DNA from: a virus
DNA: 43,179 nt
Virus record (IMG/VR): IMGVR_UViG_3300043399_000508
Span: 1 to 43,179 of that record
Strand: one strand, 5' to 3'
The notes under the pieces are model-generated. The model ran no database searches, was not told the origin of the DNA, and was given only the letters and a program-made list of their open reading frames with translations. A program made the translations under genes and the position numbers. Each line of letters opens with the position of its first letter. Position 1 is the first letter of the stretch. Shown here piece after piece: positions 13,789 to 28,529 of this stretch.

Positions 13789-14199
13789 CTACCTGTTCGG
13801 CAGAGGATTGCCACCGGGGGCAGAGGGCGAGCTACATTGCGCCTCGCTCATCCGTTCCGCCCCCAGCGGCAAAGTTTCAGGCTTCGGAATGGCTATCCAT
13901 TCCCCGCACTCTGGCCCACGTTCTTTCCAGACATGGAGCGAGCACATGACTTGGCGGGCTTCGACTTTCTGGACCATGTAGCGGCTTTGATCATCTTCCG
14001 CGCCGTAAGCGAGCACCTGCATCATCTCCCATCGGAAGGATGGAGCGCCACGCCACCAATAGAATCCGGGCGTCTCAGGCCATGCCGAACAAGCCGTGCG
14101 AGCCAACCGCTCTTCGGCATTTCTTTTGCGGGCGCAGCTTGGACACACAGGCGGACCATTCAGGCCGATCATATCGTTTTGGCAGGTAGGGCATTTCAT
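13789..14199 (-). CDS. Zinc-ribbon protein (136 aa)
   Basis: MKCPTCQNDMIGLNG...VCPSC gives a CxxC-x14-CxxC zinc ribbon at residues 3-22. The rest has Trp-rich segments (FYWWRGAPSFRWE) and a C-terminus rich in Ser/Pro. ATG 14199 is taken because it starts just before the ribbon and does not overlap the upstream gene. Probably nucleic-acid- or protein-binding; function unknown. Confidence 0.6.
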   Translation of the reverse strand: MKCPTCQNDMIGLNGPPVCPSCARKRNAEERLARTACSAWPETPGFYWWRGAPSFRWEMMQVLAYGAEDDQSRYMVQKVEARQVMCSLHVWKERGPECGEWIAIPKPETLPLGAERMSEAQCSSPSAPGGNPLPNR

Positions 14200-14212
14200 G
14201 GCATTGGCTTTC

Positions 14213-14548
14213 TCATTTGCGCGGCGGCTCCACATCGGCGTTCGGCAGAGACGGAAGGGTCATCCACAGCGTGTCTTGGGTGATGACGAAGCTGCGGGTT
14301 CGCTCGCCGCGAGTCTCCATGACGGCGAATCCTTGTTCCCAGATTTCGGTGACGGTTCCGGCCCAGAGCATCATTCCGCCTTCGCAGTGTTCCGCCGCGC
14401 AGGCTATGTTATCCCCGACAGCAGGAAGTCGATCCGTGATCGGCGTCCAAGCCGAACAAGGCATCGCTCCTAACCGCCGGGTTCCGGTGATTCCGGCCCA
14501 CAGGGCTTCGAGTTTGAGTGATCGTTTGAGAAGGCGTTTTGGCATCAT
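14213..14548 (-). CDS. Hypothetical protein (111 aa)
   Basis: MMPKRLLKRSLKLEALWAGITG... with ITDRLPAVGDNIACAAEHCEGGMMLWAGTV in the middle (a segment often seen in short phage DUF551-like or surface-fold proteins, from memory only). It lies 14 nt from each neighbour in the replication operon. Function unknown. Confidence 0.55.
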   Translation of the reverse strand: MMPKRLLKRSLKLEALWAGITGTRRLGAMPCSAWTPITDRLPAVGDNIACAAEHCEGGMMLWAGTVTEIWEQGFAVMETRGERTRSFVITQDTLWMTLPSLPNADVEPPRK

Positions 14549-14562
14549 GGCGGTAGGAGGAT

Positions 14563-14841
14563 TTAGACGTTCTCCTCAATGAATCTGACCTCACCGCCGG
14601 GTGTGTCTGGCACGTCGATCCAGATCTTCCCACAGTAGAGCATTTGCACGCGGATCAGTGATCGCGGCGACTCGCGCCGGATACCTCGATAGATGTTCGC
14701 GAAGCCGTCGCCGGATTGGCGGCATCGCCATTCTTCGCGCCATTTCCCGCGTTTCCGCCAAGCATCTCCTAGCAAGGAGAACAAGCCAGCGCTGAGCAAC
14801 CCGCCTTCTGCGGTGAGTTCGGTGTGTAGTTTTTCGGGCAT
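14563..14841 (-). CDS. Hypothetical protein (92 aa)
   Basis: MPEKLHTELTAEGGLLSAGLFSLLGDAWRKRGKW..., basic in the middle and acidic at the end (VRFIEENV). It lies within the replication operon with a 50-bp gap on its upstream side. No family recognised. Confidence 0.5.
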   Translation of the reverse strand: MPEKLHTELTAEGGLLSAGLFSLLGDAWRKRGKWREEWRCRQSGDGFANIYRGIRRESPRSLIRVQMLYCGKIWIDVPDTPGGEVRFIEENV

Positions 14842-15786: not shown

Positions 15787-15817
15787 CCATATGGTTTCCA
15801 TATGGTTTCCATATGGG
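15787..15817. repeat. Three tandem 11-bp iterons (CCATATGGTTT)
   Basis: CCATATGGTTT is repeated at 15787 and 15798, with a third, partial copy (CCATATGGG) at 15809. Each contains the palindrome CCATATGG. It lies in the 99-bp gap between the 60-aa gene and the replisome organiser. Candidate iterons of an origin or an autoregulatory operator. Confidence 0.6.
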
Positions 15818-16000
15818 TTATGCCGATTTCCTCTCCTTGATCCTCTCCGCGTGCATCTCGGCCAAGGCAATCAACGCCTTGTCCAGTTGCTCGCGTAGCC
15901 GCTGAACCATCTTGTCATGGTCGCGCTTCAAAACCCACGGGCCGTTACGCCACGCGGCGAGTTCGGTCCTTTCCTGATCTGGTAGTGGTGTCGTGTTCAT
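15818..16000 (-). CDS. Small helical protein (60 aa)
   Basis: MNTTPLPDQERTELAAWRNGPWVLKRDHDKM... followed by an amphipathic helix ending KERKSA. The ATG at 16000 overlaps the stop of the resolvase gene (ATGA). Function unknown. Confidence 0.55.
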   Translation of the reverse strand: MNTTPLPDQERTELAAWRNGPWVLKRDHDKMVQRLREQLDKALIALAEMHAERIKERKSA

Positions 16001-19544: not shown

Positions 19545-20546
19545 TTAATCAAGTCCGGCAAGCAGCGGGACTTCTTCCATTAGGTTGCCTTTGGCCGCCT
19601 CTTCGCAGTTGCGCACGGCTTGGCGGAAATAGGCTTCTTTCAGCTCAATGCCGATTGCCTTGCGCCCGTTTAGTATCGCGCCGTAAGCCTCTGATCCGAC
19701 TCCAAGGAAAGGAGTCAAAACAACCTCGTTTGGGTTGGACCATAGGACGCAAGCACGCTCGATCACGTCGAGTTGCAGCGGGTGGACGTGCTTTTCGTCG
19801 TCCTGGTCGCGGCATTCCTTGTATGGTAAAACATTGTCAATCCGGATGTCGTCCCAAAATGAGGACGCGTATTGTCGCCAGATCCAATGCGAAAAGCGGT
19901 TCTCCTTTTGGTCGCCTTTCCATCCCCGGTATTGTTGCAATTCGTGAGGCATCACGCGTTCGCCGCAATACTTCATCAACCCTTCCGGGTGAGATACAGG
20001 GACTTCGTTTTCACCCTTCTTGCGGAAAACCAGAAGTTGGTCCGCTGTGGCAACATCGCAAAGCGTGCTGTCCTCGGTTAGTGTCCGGTGGGCAAGTCCC
20101 TTCGCCATGGTTCGGAGTCGCACGCCAAGCGGTTCCTTCCAAATGTGTCGTCGCATGCAATACTGGAATCCGTGCTTTTCATGCTCGCGGATGATGTCGC
20201 CGGGAAAGTCAATCAACCCGGTTCCCACGTTTGCCCCGCACCCCATCTTTGCCGTGTCCCCGTTGCCTGTCCCCGGAACATCCATGCAATGAACGGCGGT
20301 CATGCGTCCTGGTTTTGTGGCGCGTGCAATCTCGGAGATCAAGAATCCGTAGTGTTCGAAAAACTCCTGATAGGAATCATTATTGCTCATGTCCCTTGGG
20401 TCGGACGAGTAATTGTAAAGGCCGCAAAACGGCGGGGAATAGATTGAGAAGTCAACCGATGAATCGGGAATGGTTGGCAGGACTTCGCAACTGTCCCCAT
20501 TGTAAAGGGCGTAGCGGTCGGTTATCACTTGTTGTTTTACAGCCAT
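19545..20546 (-). CDS. DNA methyltransferase, N4-cytosine/N6-adenine type (333 aa)
   Basis: Motif IV is SPPF (residues 37-40), which is most often seen in N4-cytosine enzymes, and the SAM-binding motif I is LTPFLGVGSEAYGA near residue 290. This motif order (catalytic first) with a large central target-recognition region is the beta class. A conserved DFPGDIIREHEKHGFQY.. RHIWKEPLGVR block lies between. It probably modifies phage DNA to protect it from host restriction; no cognate nuclease is present. It overlaps the upstream helicase gene by 10 bp. Confidence 0.85.
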   Translation of the reverse strand: MAVKQQVITDRYALYNGDSCEVLPTIPDSSVDFSIYSPPFCGLYNYSSDPRDMSNNDSYQEFFEHYGFLISEIARATKPGRMTAVHCMDVPGTGNGDTAKMGCGANVGTGLIDFPGDIIREHEKHGFQYCMRRHIWKEPLGVRLRTMAKGLAHRTLTEDSTLCDVATADQLLVFRKKGENEVPVSHPEGLMKYCGERVMPHELQQYRGWKGDQKENRFSHWIWRQYASSFWDDIRIDNVLPYKECRDQDDEKHVHPLQLDVIERACVLWSNPNEVVLTPFLGVGSEAYGAILNGRKAIGIELKEAYFRQAVRNCEEAAKGNLMEEVPLLAGLD

Positions 20547-22256: not shown

Positions 22257-23219
22257 TTAGCCTTCTTCGGTTTGTTGGTGGTAATCGTCATCCGCGCCGA
22301 CCTCGCATGATTCGCCGCATGATGATCCAAGGTCCAGTAAGTCATCAAAAAGCTCCGGTTGGTTGAATTGATCGTCAACGTAAGGCGCAAAATCCGTCGT
22401 GAATGCCAATTTTACAATGTCCTGTGCTGACTTGTTTTGTCTAAAAAATGTCCTTGGCTCGGTCTGGTTGTCTCCGTTGCTAACCATCCCGTATTTGCGT
22501 TCCATCTGCCCCCACCAGTCAAAAACTGACGGGTCCTCTTTTGCTCTTGTCATCAGTTTGCGAAGCGACTTTTTCCAACATCCGTCGCAGTTTCCGTGAT
22601 GATCTCCGGCAAGTTTTAAGTCCCATGGAAACTTTGCCATGTATGCGTTAACGTCCCGCTTGCGCCATCCCTCGTCGGCCAATGGGTAAACAAAACGGCG
22701 TTCTTTCATATTCTTGCTGGCGCGGGAAAGAATTTCGTCGGCGCGAATTCCGATTGCGGTGTCATAGCTACCGCGCTCCCATCCTTGACTTCTAAGCCAC
22801 CAGTGGATCGGTTCGTCTTTAAGCCTGCCGGTGCAGTTTGGATAGCTCTTGTTGAAGATTCCATGTTTGGCGATTGCCGACTCGAAAACCTTGCCGTCGC
22901 GGTTTGCCGTCTCAAAAGTCACAACTTTTGCTGTCGGCGCTTTTCGTTCGCCGTGATGAATAATTGCCTCAAGCCACACAACGCGATGCCCTCTGGGTTG
23001 GCAGAAATGGCGATCCGCAGCGTCAACGAACTCCAGAGTCTCTTCCTTTTCTCGTCCAGTATTTGCAAAAGTGATCAAGATTTCATGCGTTTCCGAAAAG
23101 CGTTCTAGGCAACGATCGAGCATAACTGCGGACGAACGGCCACCGCTAAATGATATGGCGAGCCTGGGGCGTTGCTCGTCGTGCAATCGTTTAGAGATTT
23201 TCTGTGGGTATCTAGACAT
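22257..23219 (-). CDS. PAPS-reductase-like ATP pyrophosphatase (320 aa)
   Basis: The N-terminal SFSGGRSSAVML (SGG loop at residues 25-30) is the PP-loop of the adenine nucleotide alpha-hydrolase/PAPS reductase family. ITFANTGREKEETLEFV and a Cys-rich NCDGCWKKS near residue 212 plus a C-terminal CGESC suggest a metal cluster. Such proteins are common in phages; proposed roles include sulfur or nucleotide modification (the DndC enzyme of DNA phosphorothioation belongs to the same fold). The substrate cannot be told from sequence. It lies just upstream of the helicase/methyltransferase pair. Confidence 0.8.
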   Translation of the reverse strand: MSRYPQKISKRLHDEQRPRLAISFSGGRSSAVMLDRCLERFSETHEILITFANTGREKEETLEFVDAADRHFCQPRGHRVVWLEAIIHHGERKAPTAKVVTFETANRDGKVFESAIAKHGIFNKSYPNCTGRLKDEPIHWWLRSQGWERGSYDTAIGIRADEILSRASKNMKERRFVYPLADEGWRKRDVNAYMAKFPWDLKLAGDHHGNCDGCWKKSLRKLMTRAKEDPSVFDWWGQMERKYGMVSNGDNQTEPRTFFRQNKSAQDIVKLAFTTDFAPYVDDQFNQPELFDDLLDLGSSCGESCEVGADDDYHQQTEEG

Positions 23220-25396: not shown

Positions 25397-25690
25397 TCAC
25401 TCAATAACACTGTTGTCCCGAAGAATCACCGGTCCGAGTTCGTCCTCGCCTTCGATCCATTCCCGGCTGGCGATCATCGCGGGAGCATTCAGCGAGATTC
25501 CAAGCGTGACCGGCACACCTTGGCAGTCTTCCACGAGTTCCGTCAGGCTTTCGTATCCATACTCGGGATTGTTCTGATCCCAGTAGATGATTTCCGCACC
25601 GGGGAAGCCGTTCTTGCGAGCGAACTCCAGCACAATAGCGGCGTCGATTGTTTGGCGCGGGAGCACTCCCGCATTGCATGTATGGTTCAT
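25397..25690 (-). CDS. Hypothetical protein (97 aa)
   Basis: MNHTCNAGVLPRQTIDAAIVLEFARKNGFPGAE... contains EIIYWDQNNPEYGYESLTELVE (landmarks YWDQNNPEYGY). ATG 25690 has an A/C leader (CGAACCACCAGAAAACC) and follows the attC-like site at 25723-25809 in reading direction. No family recognised. Confidence 0.6.
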   Translation of the reverse strand: MNHTCNAGVLPRQTIDAAIVLEFARKNGFPGAEIIYWDQNNPEYGYESLTELVEDCQGVPVTLGISLNAPAMIASREWIEGEDELGPVILRDNSVIE

Positions 25691-25722
25691 GGTTTTCTGG
25701 TGGTTCGGATATTTCAAAAGAG

Positions 25723-25809
25723 GGACAACAAGCCACGGCACACGACCGGGACTAGCTCTCCAGTTTCATTTCAAAGGCTTCTCATTGGCTCCCGGCGCGT
25801 GCGTTGCAG
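25723..25809 (+). repeat. attC-like recombination site 1
   Basis: Reading the plus strand: GGACAAC-AA-GCC (25723-25731) at the left and GCGC... GTGC-GTTGCAG (25803-25809) at the right. Inner arms are GGCACACGACCGGGA (25737-25751) and CCCGGCGCGTGC (25791-25802). The pattern AAC-AA ... GC-GTT is the classical attC unpaired central spacer. The right half lies inside the C-terminal codons of the gene at 25766-26140. Confidence 0.6.
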
Positions 25810-26140
25810 CGTTCGTCGGAAAGAATCCCATGAATCGTGACTCCCATTTAGGTTCCTCGTCGGTTCCTGTTTTCACGACTTCCATTCGAGCCTCGTATTG
25901 CGGCGGGATTTGCCATTCGGGGACTTCCTCGAAGTGCGGACTGATTGCCACATATTCAAAGGTCATCGTCTCGTATCGGAGTTCGCATCGGATCACCACG
26001 CATTCCGCCATGACTTTTATCACTTCGGCGGTGTGGCTTCTGAGTAGTTCTTCGGACACGCGGAACGAACCAAGACGACGAACAAGTCGCTCCTGGACAA
26101 CCGCGCCCGCCTCGTTGTTGGGCTGTGTTTGGTTTGGCAT
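25766..26140 (-). CDS. Cassette-borne hypothetical protein (up to 124 aa)
   Basis: From ATG 26140: MPNQTQPNNEAGAVVQERLVRR... The first ~20 residues overlap the attC-like site at 26077-26197, so a GTG at 26059 (97 aa) is a possible true start. The core (VIKVMAECVVIRCELRYETMTF, PHFEEVPEWQIPPQYEARMEVV as landmarks) looks like a real beta-rich protein. The C-terminus TNAATHAPGANEKPLK is encoded by attC-like site 1 and resembles the C-terminus of the 169-aa protein. Function unknown. Confidence 0.6.
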   Translation of the reverse strand: MPNQTQPNNEAGAVVQERLVRRLGSFRVSEELLRSHTAEVIKVMAECVVIRCELRYETMTFEYVAISPHFEEVPEWQIPPQYEARMEVVKTGTDEEPKWESRFMGFFPTNAATHAPGANEKPLK

Positions 26141-26197
26141 AGATTTTAGGTGTTGCGGCACGCGCTCTCGGCGCGGTGCCAGAGCTAGGCGTTAGCC
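26077..26197 (+). repeat. attC-like recombination site 2
   Basis: GACGAAC-AA-GTCGCTCCTGG (from 26077) and GCTAG-GC-GTTAGCC (to 26197). Inner arms are CTGGACAACCGCGCC and GGCGCGGTGCCAG (near 26091-26105 and 26170-26182). AAC-AA and GC-GTT match the classical attC spacer. It follows the Tad2-like gene in reading direction. Confidence 0.6.
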
Positions 26198-26223
26198 GGA
26201 GAATGGAAGATCCACTCTCCGGC
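26195..26223. repeat. Hairpin between attC-like site 2 and the Tad2-like stop
   Basis: GCCGGAGA (26195-26202) and TCTCCGGC (26216-26223) form a perfect 8-bp stem directly after the Tad2-like gene in transcription direction. No T-run follows, so it is not a clear terminator; it may protect the mRNA end. Confidence 0.5.
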
Positions 26224-26231
26224 CTGGTTGG

Positions 26232-26549
26232 TCAGTCGAGGATTTCCCAGTCTTCGGCCAGCATGTCAGACTGCGAGGCGAGCCAGCCCGTGAGGACTTT
26301 CTTGTCTGCTGTCATCATGCGGATCGAGCCAAGGGCTTCGATTTCTCCTCCATTGGCTTCCGCCACCTCTTTCAAGTGAGGTTCGCGGCACCATTCGGCT
26401 TTCACCATGGCAGCGGGCAGCAGCCAGAGATACATGCCTTTTCCATTCCATCCCTTGCGGGATACGCGGTGCCCTGCTTTGAGGGCTTCGATTGCATTAC
26501 CGAACGGGAGTTCCGTCGTCCTGCCTACTGGTTCTTGTGTGGTATCCAT
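26232..26549 (-). CDS. tad2: Tad2-like anti-Thoeris protein (DUF2829), 105 aa
   Basis: Matches the DUF2829 pattern by eye: PFGNAIEALKAGHRVSRKGWNGKGMYLWLLP, then IRMMTADKKVLTGWLASQSDMLAEDWEI at the end (both quoted as landmarks). This is the family described as Thoeris anti-defence 2. Such proteins bind the gcADPR-type signal made by the Thoeris sensor and so block NAD depletion. A housekeeping role of the family cannot be excluded. It lies between attC-like sites at 26077-26197 and 26581-26667, that is, as a single cassette with its own A/C-rich leader (GGAAACCACAAAACAAACATG). Confidence 0.8.
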   Translation of the reverse strand: MDTTQEPVGRTTELPFGNAIEALKAGHRVSRKGWNGKGMYLWLLPAAMVKAEWCREPHLKEVAEANGGEIEALGSIRMMTADKKVLTGWLASQSDMLAEDWEILD

Positions 26550-26580
26550 GTTTGTTTTGTGGTTTCCGCGTCCCCCGAAC

Positions 26581-26667
26581 GGCTAACAAGTCGGTCGAGG
26601 CAACGGCGGGAAGGTCTATTTTTGAGGCGGCGTCTTATCTCGCCGTGCCTCACCTATTGCGTTATGC
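26581..26667 (+). repeat. attC-like recombination site 3
   Basis: GGCTAAC-AA-GTCGG (26581-26594) at the left and CCTATT-GC-GTTATGC (26653-26667) at the right. Inner arms GAGGCAACGGCG and CGCCGTGCCTC (26597-26608 and 26641-26651). It is the site closest to the integron consensus: RYYYAAC, AA spacer, GC spacer, GTTRRRY-like end. It overlaps the 3' end of the gene at 26616-26978. Confidence 0.65.
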
Positions 26668-26978
26668 CCAGAATGATCCACCTCAACGCGACCCGTGATA
26701 AATCCACGGCGCGGCATCCTCGCGGAGTGCATCACGGCCAGAATATCAATCGCCGTGTCGATGTAGTCGCCGCGTTTCAGCGGACCCATCGTGAATGCGG
26801 CGAACTCATCGAAGCCGCCCTGCATTTCGGCGGACGCCCTGACAAGGTAGTTGCCAACATCGCCACCGCCTCGCATGTCGCCAGCGGTGCCGTCGTTCTC
26901 GATGTCCACGACAGCAAGCTTTCTTTTCCGGGATTCGTCCCCCCGTGGGATCAGTTCAATGGTAACTCGAAGAGGCAT
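26616..26978 (-). CDS. Conserved phage hypothetical protein (120 aa)
   Basis: MPLRVTIELIPRGDESRKRKLAVVDIENDGT... has the beta-rich start (VTIELIP.GDE) of a small family common in phages. The start ATG overlaps the TAAC core of the attC-like site at 26975, and the C-terminus GHNAIGEARRDKTPPQK is encoded by attC-like site 3. Function unknown. Confidence 0.65.
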   Translation of the reverse strand: MPLRVTIELIPRGDESRKRKLAVVDIENDGTAGDMRGGGDVGNYLVRASAEMQGGFDEFAAFTMGPLKRGDYIDTAIDILAVMHSARMPRRGFITGRVEVDHSGHNAIGEARRDKTPPQK

Positions 26979-27070
26979 AACAAGTGAGTGGATTCGACCC
27001 GGAATTAGCGGGCCAGTTTCGATGCTATGGCTTTTCAACGGCTCCGGGCGCATCACTCCCAGCGTTCAGC
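26975..27070 (+). repeat. attC-like recombination site 4
   Basis: GCATAAC-AA-GTGAGTGG (26975-26991) and CACTCCCA-GC-GTTCAGC (to 27070). Inner arms GACCCGG and CCGGGCGC near 26996-27002 and 27044-27051. AAC-AA/GC-GTT spacer as in classical attC. It overlaps the C-terminal codons of the 169-aa gene (27025-27534). Confidence 0.6.
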
Positions 27071-27534
27071 GGAGAAACAAGATAGCCTTCCAGCCGCCCG
27101 ATTTCCTTCTTGGCATGGCGATCTCGTTCTTCACGGCAGCAGTATTCGATGTCGCCCATCAGTCCGATCGCGTTGATTGCGCTGTTGATTCCGCGCCGGG
27201 CCAGATCGCGAGCGCGTTCCAGTTCCTGCATTTTGAGATGCATCCGGATTCCAGTCATCGGCCCCGAGTTTTGCATGCAGTGGGCATACAATGCATCAGA
27301 TTCCGGCGTGTCAGTGTCAGCCGCGATGGCGGTGGGCTGGCGGTGGAGCTTCTCCCGTTCGAGTTGGAGCGCGAGCCATTCCGCATAACGGCGGACGAAG
27401 CCGATTCCATCCTCACGGACAGCAAAGCGCCCAGTGGCTTGCGCATCGGCGATTTCCATCTCCGAGCATTCGCCGGAGGTTACAATTGCGCCACCCTCGG
27501 CGGCGAGTTGATTGATTAGTTGGTCAATGGTCAT
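27025..27534 (-). CDS. Cassette-borne helical protein (169 aa)
   Basis: MTIDQLINQLAAEGGAIVTSGE... is mostly helical, with MQELERARDLARRGINSAINAIG and CCREERDRHAKKEIGRL in the second half. The C-terminus NAGSDAPGAVEKP is encoded by attC-like site 4 and echoes NAATHAPGANEKP of the 124-aa protein. The leader is A/C-rich (GAACCACCAACCAAATAACACC). Function unknown. Confidence 0.6.
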   Translation of the reverse strand: MTIDQLINQLAAEGGAIVTSGECSEMEIADAQATGRFAVREDGIGFVRRYAEWLALQLEREKLHRQPTAIAADTDTPESDALYAHCMQNSGPMTGIRMHLKMQELERARDLARRGINSAINAIGLMGDIEYCCREERDRHAKKEIGRLEGYLVSPLNAGSDAPGAVEKP

Positions 27535-27563
27535 GGTGTTATTTGGTTGGTGGTTCGGAAGAC

Positions 27564-27651
27564 GCTGAACAAGACGCGGATGGACGACGGCGATCAGCCG
27601 TCAATTTGATTTCGATCTCCAGCGCGCCGCGCCATCGCTGGATCGTTCGGC
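27564..27651 (+). repeat. attC-like recombination site 5
   Basis: GCTGAAC-AA-GACG (27564-27577) and GGAT-C-GTTCGGC (to 27651). Inner arms GATGGACGACGGCG and CGCCGCGCCATC. The right spacer is TC instead of GC. It overlaps the 3' end of the gene at 27594-27851. Confidence 0.6.
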
Positions 27652-27851
27652 AGAATCGGACTCCCCGGTTTGTATTCGTTCCACCATGTCCCTTTGCATT
27701 TTATGCACTCGTGAATTTCAGGATTCATGCCGTAAGGTTTAGTGGCCCCTGTATAGCCGCAATGAGGGCAAGCAAAAGAAGCCGAACAAGCCGCGTCACA
27801 CGACGGCGATGGCGTGGCAGTTTGATTATCGTTTGGCATATCGGTGTTCAT
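27594..27851 (-). CDS. Zinc-ribbon protein (85 aa)
   Basis: Two CxxC pairs (CPHC, residues ~34-37, and CIKC, ~55-58) in SFACPHCGYTGATKPYGMNPEIHECIKCKGTWW (landmarks CPHCGYTG and CIKCKGTWW) form a zinc ribbon. The first ~24 residues overlap attC-like site 6, and the C-terminal PNDPAMARRAGDRNQIDG is encoded by site 5. It may bind nucleic acid. Confidence 0.6.
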   Translation of the reverse strand: MNTDMPNDNQTATPSPSCDAACSASFACPHCGYTGATKPYGMNPEIHECIKCKGTWWNEYKPGSPILPNDPAMARRAGDRNQIDG

Positions 27852-27887
27852 TGGTTGTTCGCGCCGCGTGTGCGCTCTGCGTTCTCT
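27781..27887 (+). repeat. attC-like recombination site 6
   Basis: GCCGAAC-AA-GCCGCGTCACACGACGGCG (27781-27808) and CGCGCCGCGTGTGCGCTCT-GC-GTTCTCT (to 27887); only the spacer pattern and the stem (CACACGACGGCG / CGCCGCGTGTG) are used as evidence. It overlaps the 3' end of the gene at 27848-28105 and the 5' end of the next. Confidence 0.55.
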
Positions 27888-28105
27888 GGACTCGCCGCTG
27901 GTGGTGTCCACCCGGCAGCAATCAGCGTGGCGTGATCCACCCGCGTTTCCGTGTAGTGGCCGGGAGCGTCACAGACCACTCGGAGGTAGCCATCGGCGTT
28001 CATGATCCCGACGCACGGGCTGTAGTAGGTGGTTACGGAGAGTTCACCGCCGTCCGTGATTTGATCGTCGGCGATGTTTTCGATGTGCATATTTGGATTC
28101 GTCAT
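27848..28105 (-). CDS. Cassette-borne hypothetical protein (85 aa)
   Basis: MTNPNMHIENIADDQITDGGELSV... with YYSPCVGIMNADGYLRVVCD. The C-terminal SPENAERTRGANNQ is encoded within attC-like site 6, and the stop overlaps the next ATG. The A/C-rich leader (CCAACCAACACCGACAAACCAA) is long. Function unknown. Confidence 0.55.
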   Translation of the reverse strand: MTNPNMHIENIADDQITDGGELSVTTYYSPCVGIMNADGYLRVVCDAPGHYTETRVDHATLIAAGWTPPAASPENAERTRGANNQ

Positions 28106-28140
28106 TTGGTTTGTCGGTGTTGGTTGGTGGATGGATCGCC

Positions 28141-28228
28141 AGAGAACAAGTCCGGTGCTGGCAACCGCGAGGAAGTCGGTTAGGTAGCGGAGTCCTGTGG
28201 CGCGGTTGCCAGACCGGGATCGTTCCTA
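28141..28228 (+). repeat. attC-like recombination site 7
   Basis: AGAGAAC-AA-GTCCGG (28141-28155) and CCGGGA-TC-GTTCCTA (28214-28228). The inner arms CTGGCAACCGCG (28158-28169) and CGCGGTTGCCAG (28201-28212) are perfectly complementary over 12 bp. The 3' end of the small gene at 28180-28296 lies within it. Confidence 0.6.
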
Positions 28229-28296: not shown

Positions 28297-28529
28297 GTGT
28301 GCATCGTGCCGCTTTTTTGCAATTCGTCAACAACGAATTGCAATTTGTTACCCGAAAAATACCCGAGCGATCCAGTCCGCCACTTTCCGCCAGTTTTTTG
28401 AATCGTTGATTTTTCGTGCATTTTCCCATCGTGGCGGAAACTGGAATGCCAATAACGGGAGTCGAGTCCCCCCGGCGGCATCGTTGATTTGCAAGCAGTT
28501 ATGGAGAAGATACCCGCTTGTTACCCTCG
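28297..28529. promoter_or_regulatory. Control region between lysis genes and accessory block
   Basis: About 230 bp without an accepted gene. It holds a perfect inverted repeat (28319-28341), a TTGACG hexamer on the minus strand (28330-28325), a direct repeat TCGTTGATTT (28403 and 28481), and a tRNA-3'-end-like stretch at 28455-28480. It probably separates late (lysis) and accessory transcripts. Confidence 0.5.
28319..28341. promoter_or_regulatory. Inverted repeat overlapping a -35-like hexamer
   Basis: GCAATTCGT-CAACA-ACGAATTGC, perfect 9-bp arms with a 5-bp loop. The minus-strand TTGACG lies in it, so a dimeric repressor binding here could block transcription into the 38-aa gene and the cassette array. 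Confidence 0.55.

Follow-up and report, generated by a model that had tools for sequence, protein, structure and literature searches.

Two attC cassette arrays in a tailed phage genome and their relatives in phages with integron integrases

According to recent reports, integrons of bacteria can serve as stores of anti-phage defences. In ordinary integrons, recognition of the bottom strand of the attC site sets the orientation of the inserted cassette, and the cassette genes stand under a promoter near attI (PMC8191803). Clusters of attC sites lacking an integron integrase (CALINs) as well as integrons have been found in the bacteriophages TJE1, P12002L, PH101 and MW202573, and IntI1 recombination was obtained for five of the six phage attC sites tested (Qi et al. 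2023, PMC9892861). Here we analyze two arrays of attC sites in the IMG/VR virus record IMGVR_UViG_3300043399_000508, which represents a tailed phage; the whole stretch analyzed, positions 1 to 43,179 of this record, is referred to as the window. A first-pass annotation had read the larger array as integron cassettes, an overall reading that is supported by our analysis, but had overlooked the second array, the gene polarity, the open-ended genes and the phage IntI. Its opinion that attC clusters without an integrase are not well described for phages did not hold, as such clusters were published in 2023 (PMC9892861) and are not new. We consider it highly likely that this tailed phage harbors two integron cassette arrays whose cassettes are mobile via an integron integrase, whose reversed genes are read as an operon and whose pool serves the swapping of counter-defence genes.

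The attC sites and cassette borders of the window

The window contains ten attC sites, seven of which form array 1 (~25.7–28.2 kb) and three array 2 (14.08–14.90 kb). They are listed below with the left borders of both arrays and with the scores of covariance model R1, which was built from 31 aligned attC sites of other phages and had no window sequence in its training set.

25412..25420, plus strand: left border of array 1, lone R'-type core GTTGTCCC preceded by CAATAACACT
25722..25818, plus strand: attC site 1, 69.6 bits
26076..26198, plus strand: attC site 2, 41.0 bits
26580..26668, plus strand: attC site 3, 62.5 bits
26974..27071, plus strand: attC site 4, 64.6 bits
27563..27652, plus strand: attC site 5, 56.1 bits
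27780..27888, plus strand: attC site 6, 48.5 bits
28140..28229, plus strand: attC site 7, right end of array 1, 36.8 bits
13795..13803, plus strand: left border of array 2, lone core GTTCGGCA
14083..14247, plus strand: attC site 8, array 2, 25.6 bits
14450..14576, plus strand: attC site 9, array 2, 45.6 bits
14775..14899, plus strand: attC site 10, right end of array 2, 40.1 bits

The seven elements of array 1 had been proposed from a left core AAC-AA and a right core GC-GTT (five sites) or TC-GTT (two sites), and both positions and layout were verified in the sequence. An arm-pairing finder, which looks for AACAA, a GTT 45–180 bp off and pairing arms in between, gave these seven sites scores of 31–44, compared to a maximum of 28 with an AACAA core in ten first-order (dinucleotide) resampled windows; an earlier, stricter arm finder failed to pick up most of them. 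R1 scored every one of the seven (E 1e-12 to 5e-6) and all ten sites between 69.6 and 25.6 bits (E 1.2e-12 to 7.9e-4), with the best non-site match in the window at E=0.084. Among the 31 non-window phage sites, the R1 consensus structure comprises 13 pairs, all of which (13/13) show compensatory change, and the covariation score of these pairs is 0.788, compared to at most 0.172 when the partners are slid. R1 also detects the aadA1 attC of plasmid R100 (E 1.5e-4, 920 kb searched), and does so on the proper strand, which connects the phage elements with established attC sites. A search of the window against Rfam gave no match at curated thresholds.

An R'' core ending in AAC and an R' core starting with GTT flank each of the ten window sites. 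The extrahelical bases expected of attC sites are also found: the first extra base of L'' lies at position 7–9 in 54 of 56 non-redundant sites, and its column is unpaired in the consensus structure. The central spacers read AA opposite GC, TC or AC in all 56 sites, of which the AA was demanded by the finder and only the opposite side is a free observation. When the bottom strands were folded as single-stranded DNA, the predicted L''/L' hairpin was the lowest-energy structure in five of the seven array 1 sites, but not in sites 2 and 5. Judged by sequence and covariation, we identify the ten elements as attC sites and count their structure as established.

In integron arrays, each R' core forms part of the cassette that follows, and R' of site n should hence pair with R'' of site n+1. 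For all eight pairs of neighbors in the window, R' of one site and R'' of the next match at 4–5 of 5 variable bases (7–8 of 8 bases are complementary), and cores that are not neighbors mostly match at 1–3 of 5. Across the phages scanned, neighboring cores match at 4.52 of 5 bases on average, compared to 2.02 for the two cores of one site (p 8e-17). The first element of each window array is a lone GTT core, at 25412 in array 1 and at 13795 in array 2, and the last is the R' of the final site; a window cassette consists of one small gene and one attC site, joined to its neighbors at the G^TT of the R' core. The lone core of array 1 pairs with the R'' of the first attC and resembles the attI core of IntI-bearing phages (..CACT|GTT). 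Array 1 thus comprises seven cassettes, the first of which starts at 25412, and not the about six counted initially.

Other hairpins that merely mimic attC, such as terminators, repetitive extragenic palindromic (REP)-like elements or translational-coupling elements, would also be expected between small genes, which is where the elements are placed, and some elements contain overlapping stop and start codons. Translational coupling through an ATGA overlap inside attC was followed up and dropped, as the overlap occurs in 19/54 cases compared to 26/107 control frames and is not clearly commoner. Terminators need neither AAC/GTT cores, nor an extra base at a fixed position, nor complementarity between neighboring cores, the latter of which indicates that cassettes are joined at G^TT and would not be shown by hairpins of another function. 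Together with the R1 scores and the match to R100, this complementarity practically refutes the idea, which we regard as scarcely credible.

Further features were noted close to the borders. Both arrays of the phage contig G226 (L311, at 1667 and 4254) begin after a near-identical 30 bp (TCACCCGAYCTTTGGCGAGTRAWCTTGGAT|GTT), and a CTTGGCAWGG-like stretch lies ~25 bp before GTT at the left borders of the window arrays and in the phage contigs G013 and G002/G003; it is possible that this stretch is an attI-like motif of IntI-less arrays. Window positions 28319–28345, directly beyond the right end of array 1, form a near-perfect inverted repeat around TTGCAATTCGTCAACAACGAATTGCAA, and the replication region contains short tandem CATATGGTTTC repeats (15790–15818).

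Polarity, reading frames and cargo of the cassette genes

The genes assigned to the window cassettes are located on the minus strand, opposite to the attC sites:

25397..25741, minus strand: hypothetical 114-residue open reading frame (ORF), crosses the left border of array 1
25766..26161, minus strand: hypothetical 131-residue ORF, final residues encoded by attC site 1
26232..26549, minus strand: Tad2-like (PF11195), anti-Thoeris protein family
26616..27056, minus strand: hypothetical cassette gene, 94% identical in the unrelated phage G225
27025..27534, minus strand: hypothetical cassette gene, partly common to the integron phage G001
27594..27911, minus strand: hypothetical cassette gene, weak sub-threshold zinc-ribbon match
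27848..28105, minus strand: hypothetical cassette gene, weak sub-threshold TY-Chap3 match
13789..14235, minus strand: array 2 hypothetical gene with a Cys-rich N-terminus, of which a stretch is 84% identical in the integron phage G014
14213..14548, minus strand: array 2 hypothetical cassette gene
14563..14841, minus strand: array 2 hypothetical cassette gene

In R100, used as a control, attC and the gene share a strand and intI is on the other. The phage attC arrays likewise lie on the strand opposite to intI, but the phage cassette genes are on the strand of intI and thus run against their attC. Counted by the longest ORF with the same script, genes are reversed in 43 of 53 non-redundant phage cassettes (G015, which repeats G014, was excluded), with 29 reversed and 4 ordinary in IntI phages and 14 reversed and 4 ordinary in IntI-less phages; in chromosomal cassettes of Akkermansiaceae, only 10 of 105 are reversed and 95 ordinary (Fisher p 2e-21 in a fuller count). 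Since ORF length can mislead in GC-rich DNA, domain and codon-position checks were added. Known domains, including six DNA methyltransferases and Tad2, reside on the reversed strand, and the non-reversed strand yielded only a single match, to a helix-turn-helix type protein. Between homologous cassettes, substitutions at the three codon positions of the reversed genes number 2/0/15, 13/12/47, 5/5/24 and 4/3/26, so that the third position dominates; for the gene at 26616..27056, they sit in third codon positions of the minus strand.

The reversed genes also differ in how they end. Where reversed ORFs cross the left border, the longest of them uses a single frame, in which the AAC is read as a codon, in 41 of 50 cases (43 of 45 under another selection rule), compared to no frame preference for other ORFs that cross this border (6/22). 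This fixed frame indicates that the stop codon usually comes from the attC of the neighbor, or from attI. Of 101 cassette genes in Akkermansiaceae chromosomes, 100 end ahead of or inside the attC of their own cassette. The phage cassettes thus depart from the usual, although not defining, cassette layout with a gene on the attC strand and a stop near its own attC.

These differences bear on the idea that the phage simply took pieces of a bacterial chromosomal integron, with nothing phage-specific about the arrays. R1 recognizes attC sites in 53 of 79 genomes of Akkermansiaceae, the family of the nearest prophage IntI, and the attC types are related, as this idea would predict. However, the host-family genes lie on the attC strand and end at their own attC, while those of the phages are reversed and cross the border, and the phage IntIs form a separate clade (see below). 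Ordinary host cassettes are hence an improbable explanation.

The Tad2-like protein matches PF11195 with 81.1 bits (curated cut-off 25, E 8.9e-23), by which a window cassette is predicted to encode a Tad2-like anti-Thoeris protein. The Tad2 family sequesters signals of Thoeris and of some cyclic oligonucleotide-based anti-phage signaling systems (CBASS) (PMC12043709). Among 80 Tad2 loci in other phages, no chained attC sites were found, which shows that Tad2 is not generally cassette-borne, and the attC model detected no attC near the close Tad2 relatives L001–L003 and L006. Six DNA methyltransferase cassettes are present in other phages. Since most cassette genes are hypothetical, a counter-defence pool is put forward here as a proposal. 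PAPS-reductase-like (22257–23219) and DNA-methyltransferase (19545–20546) genes are located outside the arrays in the window, and both gene kinds are also cassette-borne in G015 and other phages.

Integron integrases and cassette turnover in related phages

As stated in the first-pass annotation, no tyrosine recombinase or IntI was found when the window record, which may be incomplete, was searched; with at least two close attC sites and no intI in the element, the window classifies as a CALIN. Searches with genes in the array or close to it retrieved the phage contigs G001, G002, G003 and G004 with the same kind of array, and a DnaB query retrieved no relatives. G001 encodes terminase, portal, capsid and tape-measure proteins and belongs to a tailed phage. 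Its tyrosine recombinase has the integron integrase TIGR02249 as the best NCBIfam model (180 bits) and the Vibrio IntI4 structure 2a3v as the best PDB match, with the integron-specific insertion aligned. A scan with this protein yielded further contigs with IntI and an array (G013–G018). The phage IntIs compared share 71–80% identity with the G001 enzyme and have retained R, H, R, H and Y as catalytic residues; an AlphaFold model based on four sequences was unusable (mean predicted local distance difference test score 39.6). In the contigs with a complete intI, a conserved, attI-like sequence ending in CACT, AACT or CTCT precedes GTT just 5' of intI and is followed by the array. By this gene order, and unlike the window, related phages carry complete integrons, with IntI, attI in its usual place and an attC array.

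In a phylogenetic tree, the phage IntIs form one clade (100/100) apart from the chromosomal IntIs of Akkermansiaceae and from IntI1. The nearest bacterial copy is found in a metagenome-assembled genome (MAG) of Akkermansiaceae beside Mu-type transposition genes and has cassettes with a methyltransferase and a Lar-like gene; because these genes and cassettes adjoin it, this copy probably belongs to a prophage. The major capsid protein of the window had no match in 195 Akkermansiaceae genomes. A chromosomal array in the Akkermansiaceae genome G080 (contig C86, L201) has three ordinary and four reversed genes and a short IntI of a separate clade, and may represent another mobile or prophage integron. 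G015 encodes a second tyrosine recombinase of the ordinary phage-integrase type (L134:11511-12695) with a homing-endonuclease-like gene nearby, and G014 harbors a single strong attC (61 bits, L133:2524-2614) on the opposite strand, apart from its main array.

Turnover of cassettes, which the first-pass annotation had named as a check, was observed as gain, loss and movement of whole cassettes with edges at G^TT. G014 and G015 share a 7,650-bp flank including intI with 99.4% identity; in their arrays, a 741-bp cassette has moved (99.9% identity over 753 bp) and another is present in only one of the two, having been gained or lost. A window cassette gene (26662–26984) is 94.1% identical in G225, where the match starts at G^TT and ends just after the R'' of the attC, and the capsid proteins of the two phages are only 29% identical. 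Further whole or partial cassettes are common to the window and G001, G002, G014 and G226. At the level of single sites, attC site 4 is 92.6% identical to a G002 attC carrying a different gene, and attC site 2 has an identical R' and closely similar arms in one site of G018. Two candidates were discarded: a cassette spanning the G001 contig ends was unreliable as its cores do not chain, and a 2.2 kb G015 cassette was an artefact ending at a chance site. As a separate observation, the similarity of G225 to window positions 26662–27064 stops right after the R'' AACAAG, as if attC bodies had been exchanged at the R'' core, and gene and attC body of this cassette have different partner phages (G225 and G002, respectively).

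Among five long contigs with a terminase ~75% identical to that of the window, four (G214–G217) are without attC and G226 has two arrays, which marks the arrays as accessory; the closest GenBank phage, C75C1, has no attC. A single recombination event with an integron phage might have introduced arrays of real attC sites that are immobile in the IntI-less lineage of the window. This would fit the record without tyrosine recombinase or IntI and the array-bearing relatives G002, G003 and G226, which likewise lack IntI. However, all ten sites have retained their arms and cores well enough to be scored, neighboring cores are still complementary at 7–8 of 8 bases, and the gene shared with the unrelated phage G225 points to a fairly recent transfer. 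We hence judge a fossil array to be unlikely, although less so than a host origin of the cassettes.

Proposed mechanism and comparison with known systems

For the favored reading of mobile cassettes with reversed, operon-like genes, the sequences themselves show the identity and structure of the attC sites, the borders, the sharing and reordering of cassettes, an IntI near an attI-like sequence elsewhere, the polarity and the border frame. Mechanistically, an integron integrase would fold and cut the bottom strand of attC, and cassettes would be inserted or excised. Since the window phage has no IntI, it probably depends on IntI in trans, which could be supplied by an IntI-bearing phage or prophage, either co-infecting or resident, or by a host chromosomal integron. 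A promoter beside attI cannot drive genes that point against attC; the cassette genes may instead be read as an operon from the far end toward attI/intI, along the transcription of the window phage. Each cassette gene would then end on a stop codon inside the attC of its neighbor, and the fixed frame would let any neighbor close it, such that a cassette could be inserted anywhere and leave the operon readable with only a short C-terminal tail altered. The pool might serve the swapping of counter-defence genes such as Tad2 and DNA methyltransferases.

Several points weigh against this reading. The phage IntIs score 180–195 bits with TIGR02249, below the curated cut-off of 265. Both cassettes of G004 (L129, 3340–3869) have ordinary polarity by ORF length (0 reversed, 2 ordinary), and when just the window is considered, the longer ORF is on the reversed strand in only 7 of 10 cassettes, the codon-position test settling two of the remaining three. 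The G225 homolog differs in its attC body, so that not every exchange is a simple cassette move, and a search for an empty integration site found none, with no examined relative spanning both flanks. Finally, the window phage has no IntI, so that its arrays could be inherited and inert.

Phages, related and unrelated, seem to trade small, probably counter-defence, genes through integron-type swapping known mainly from bacteria. Going further, we lean slightly toward the view that a group of phages, some of which infect Akkermansiaceae-like Verrucomicrobiota, has an integron economy of its own, with a phage IntI lineage, a shared pool of reversed, stop-less, one-phase cassettes that is translatable in any order and enriched for counter-defence genes, and IntI-less unrelated phages using the enzyme in trans. 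If true, phage-owned integrons would be a modular route to swap anti-defence genes and help to account for the fast turnover of small hypothetical genes in phages, and genes flanked by such attC sites would be promising candidates in the search for new counter-defence proteins. In addition, the reversed and phase-locked layout is a variant of cassette array expression that lends itself to direct testing.

When compared to the chromosomal integrons of Akkermansiaceae (Verrucomicrobiota), the phage arrays have attC sites whose sequence and structure fit one model with theirs and an IntI opposite attC, as these do, but differ in gene polarity, gene ends and IntI clade. With the class 1 integron of R100 (IntI1, aadA1) they share AA/GC spacers, the extra L'' base and an IntI opposite attC; aadA1 lies on the attC strand, whereas the phage cassette genes lie on the other. 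The window Tad2 sits in an integron cassette, unlike its close relatives checked. The phages of Qi et al. 2023 (PMC9892861) resemble those studied here in having integrase-less attC clusters, also in lytic phages, and methyltransferase cassettes, and their attC sites are usable by IntI1. Their complete integrons are pieces of Vibrio, Shewanella or class 1 integrons, whereas a separate phage IntI clade occurs here in related phages; moreover, the phages studied here include unrelated ones with cassettes in common, their cassettes have reversed genes with open ends, and their attC sites are of another type, R1 detecting no attC in TJE1, MW202573 and the searched part of P12002L. The searchable literature, with bioRxiv and most subscription journals outside the search, yielded no description of an IntI lineage of phages, of phage cassettes with reversed genes or of open-ended cassette genes locked in phase. 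What appears to be new is that other cassette phages encode their own IntI of a distinct clade beside attI, that cassettes are reordered between near-identical flanks and a window cassette gene recurs in an unrelated phage, one end of the match being at G^TT, that genes run against attC and usually read through the border in a fixed frame to a stop from the neighbor's attC, and that the recognizable cargo includes Tad2 and DNA methyltransferases.

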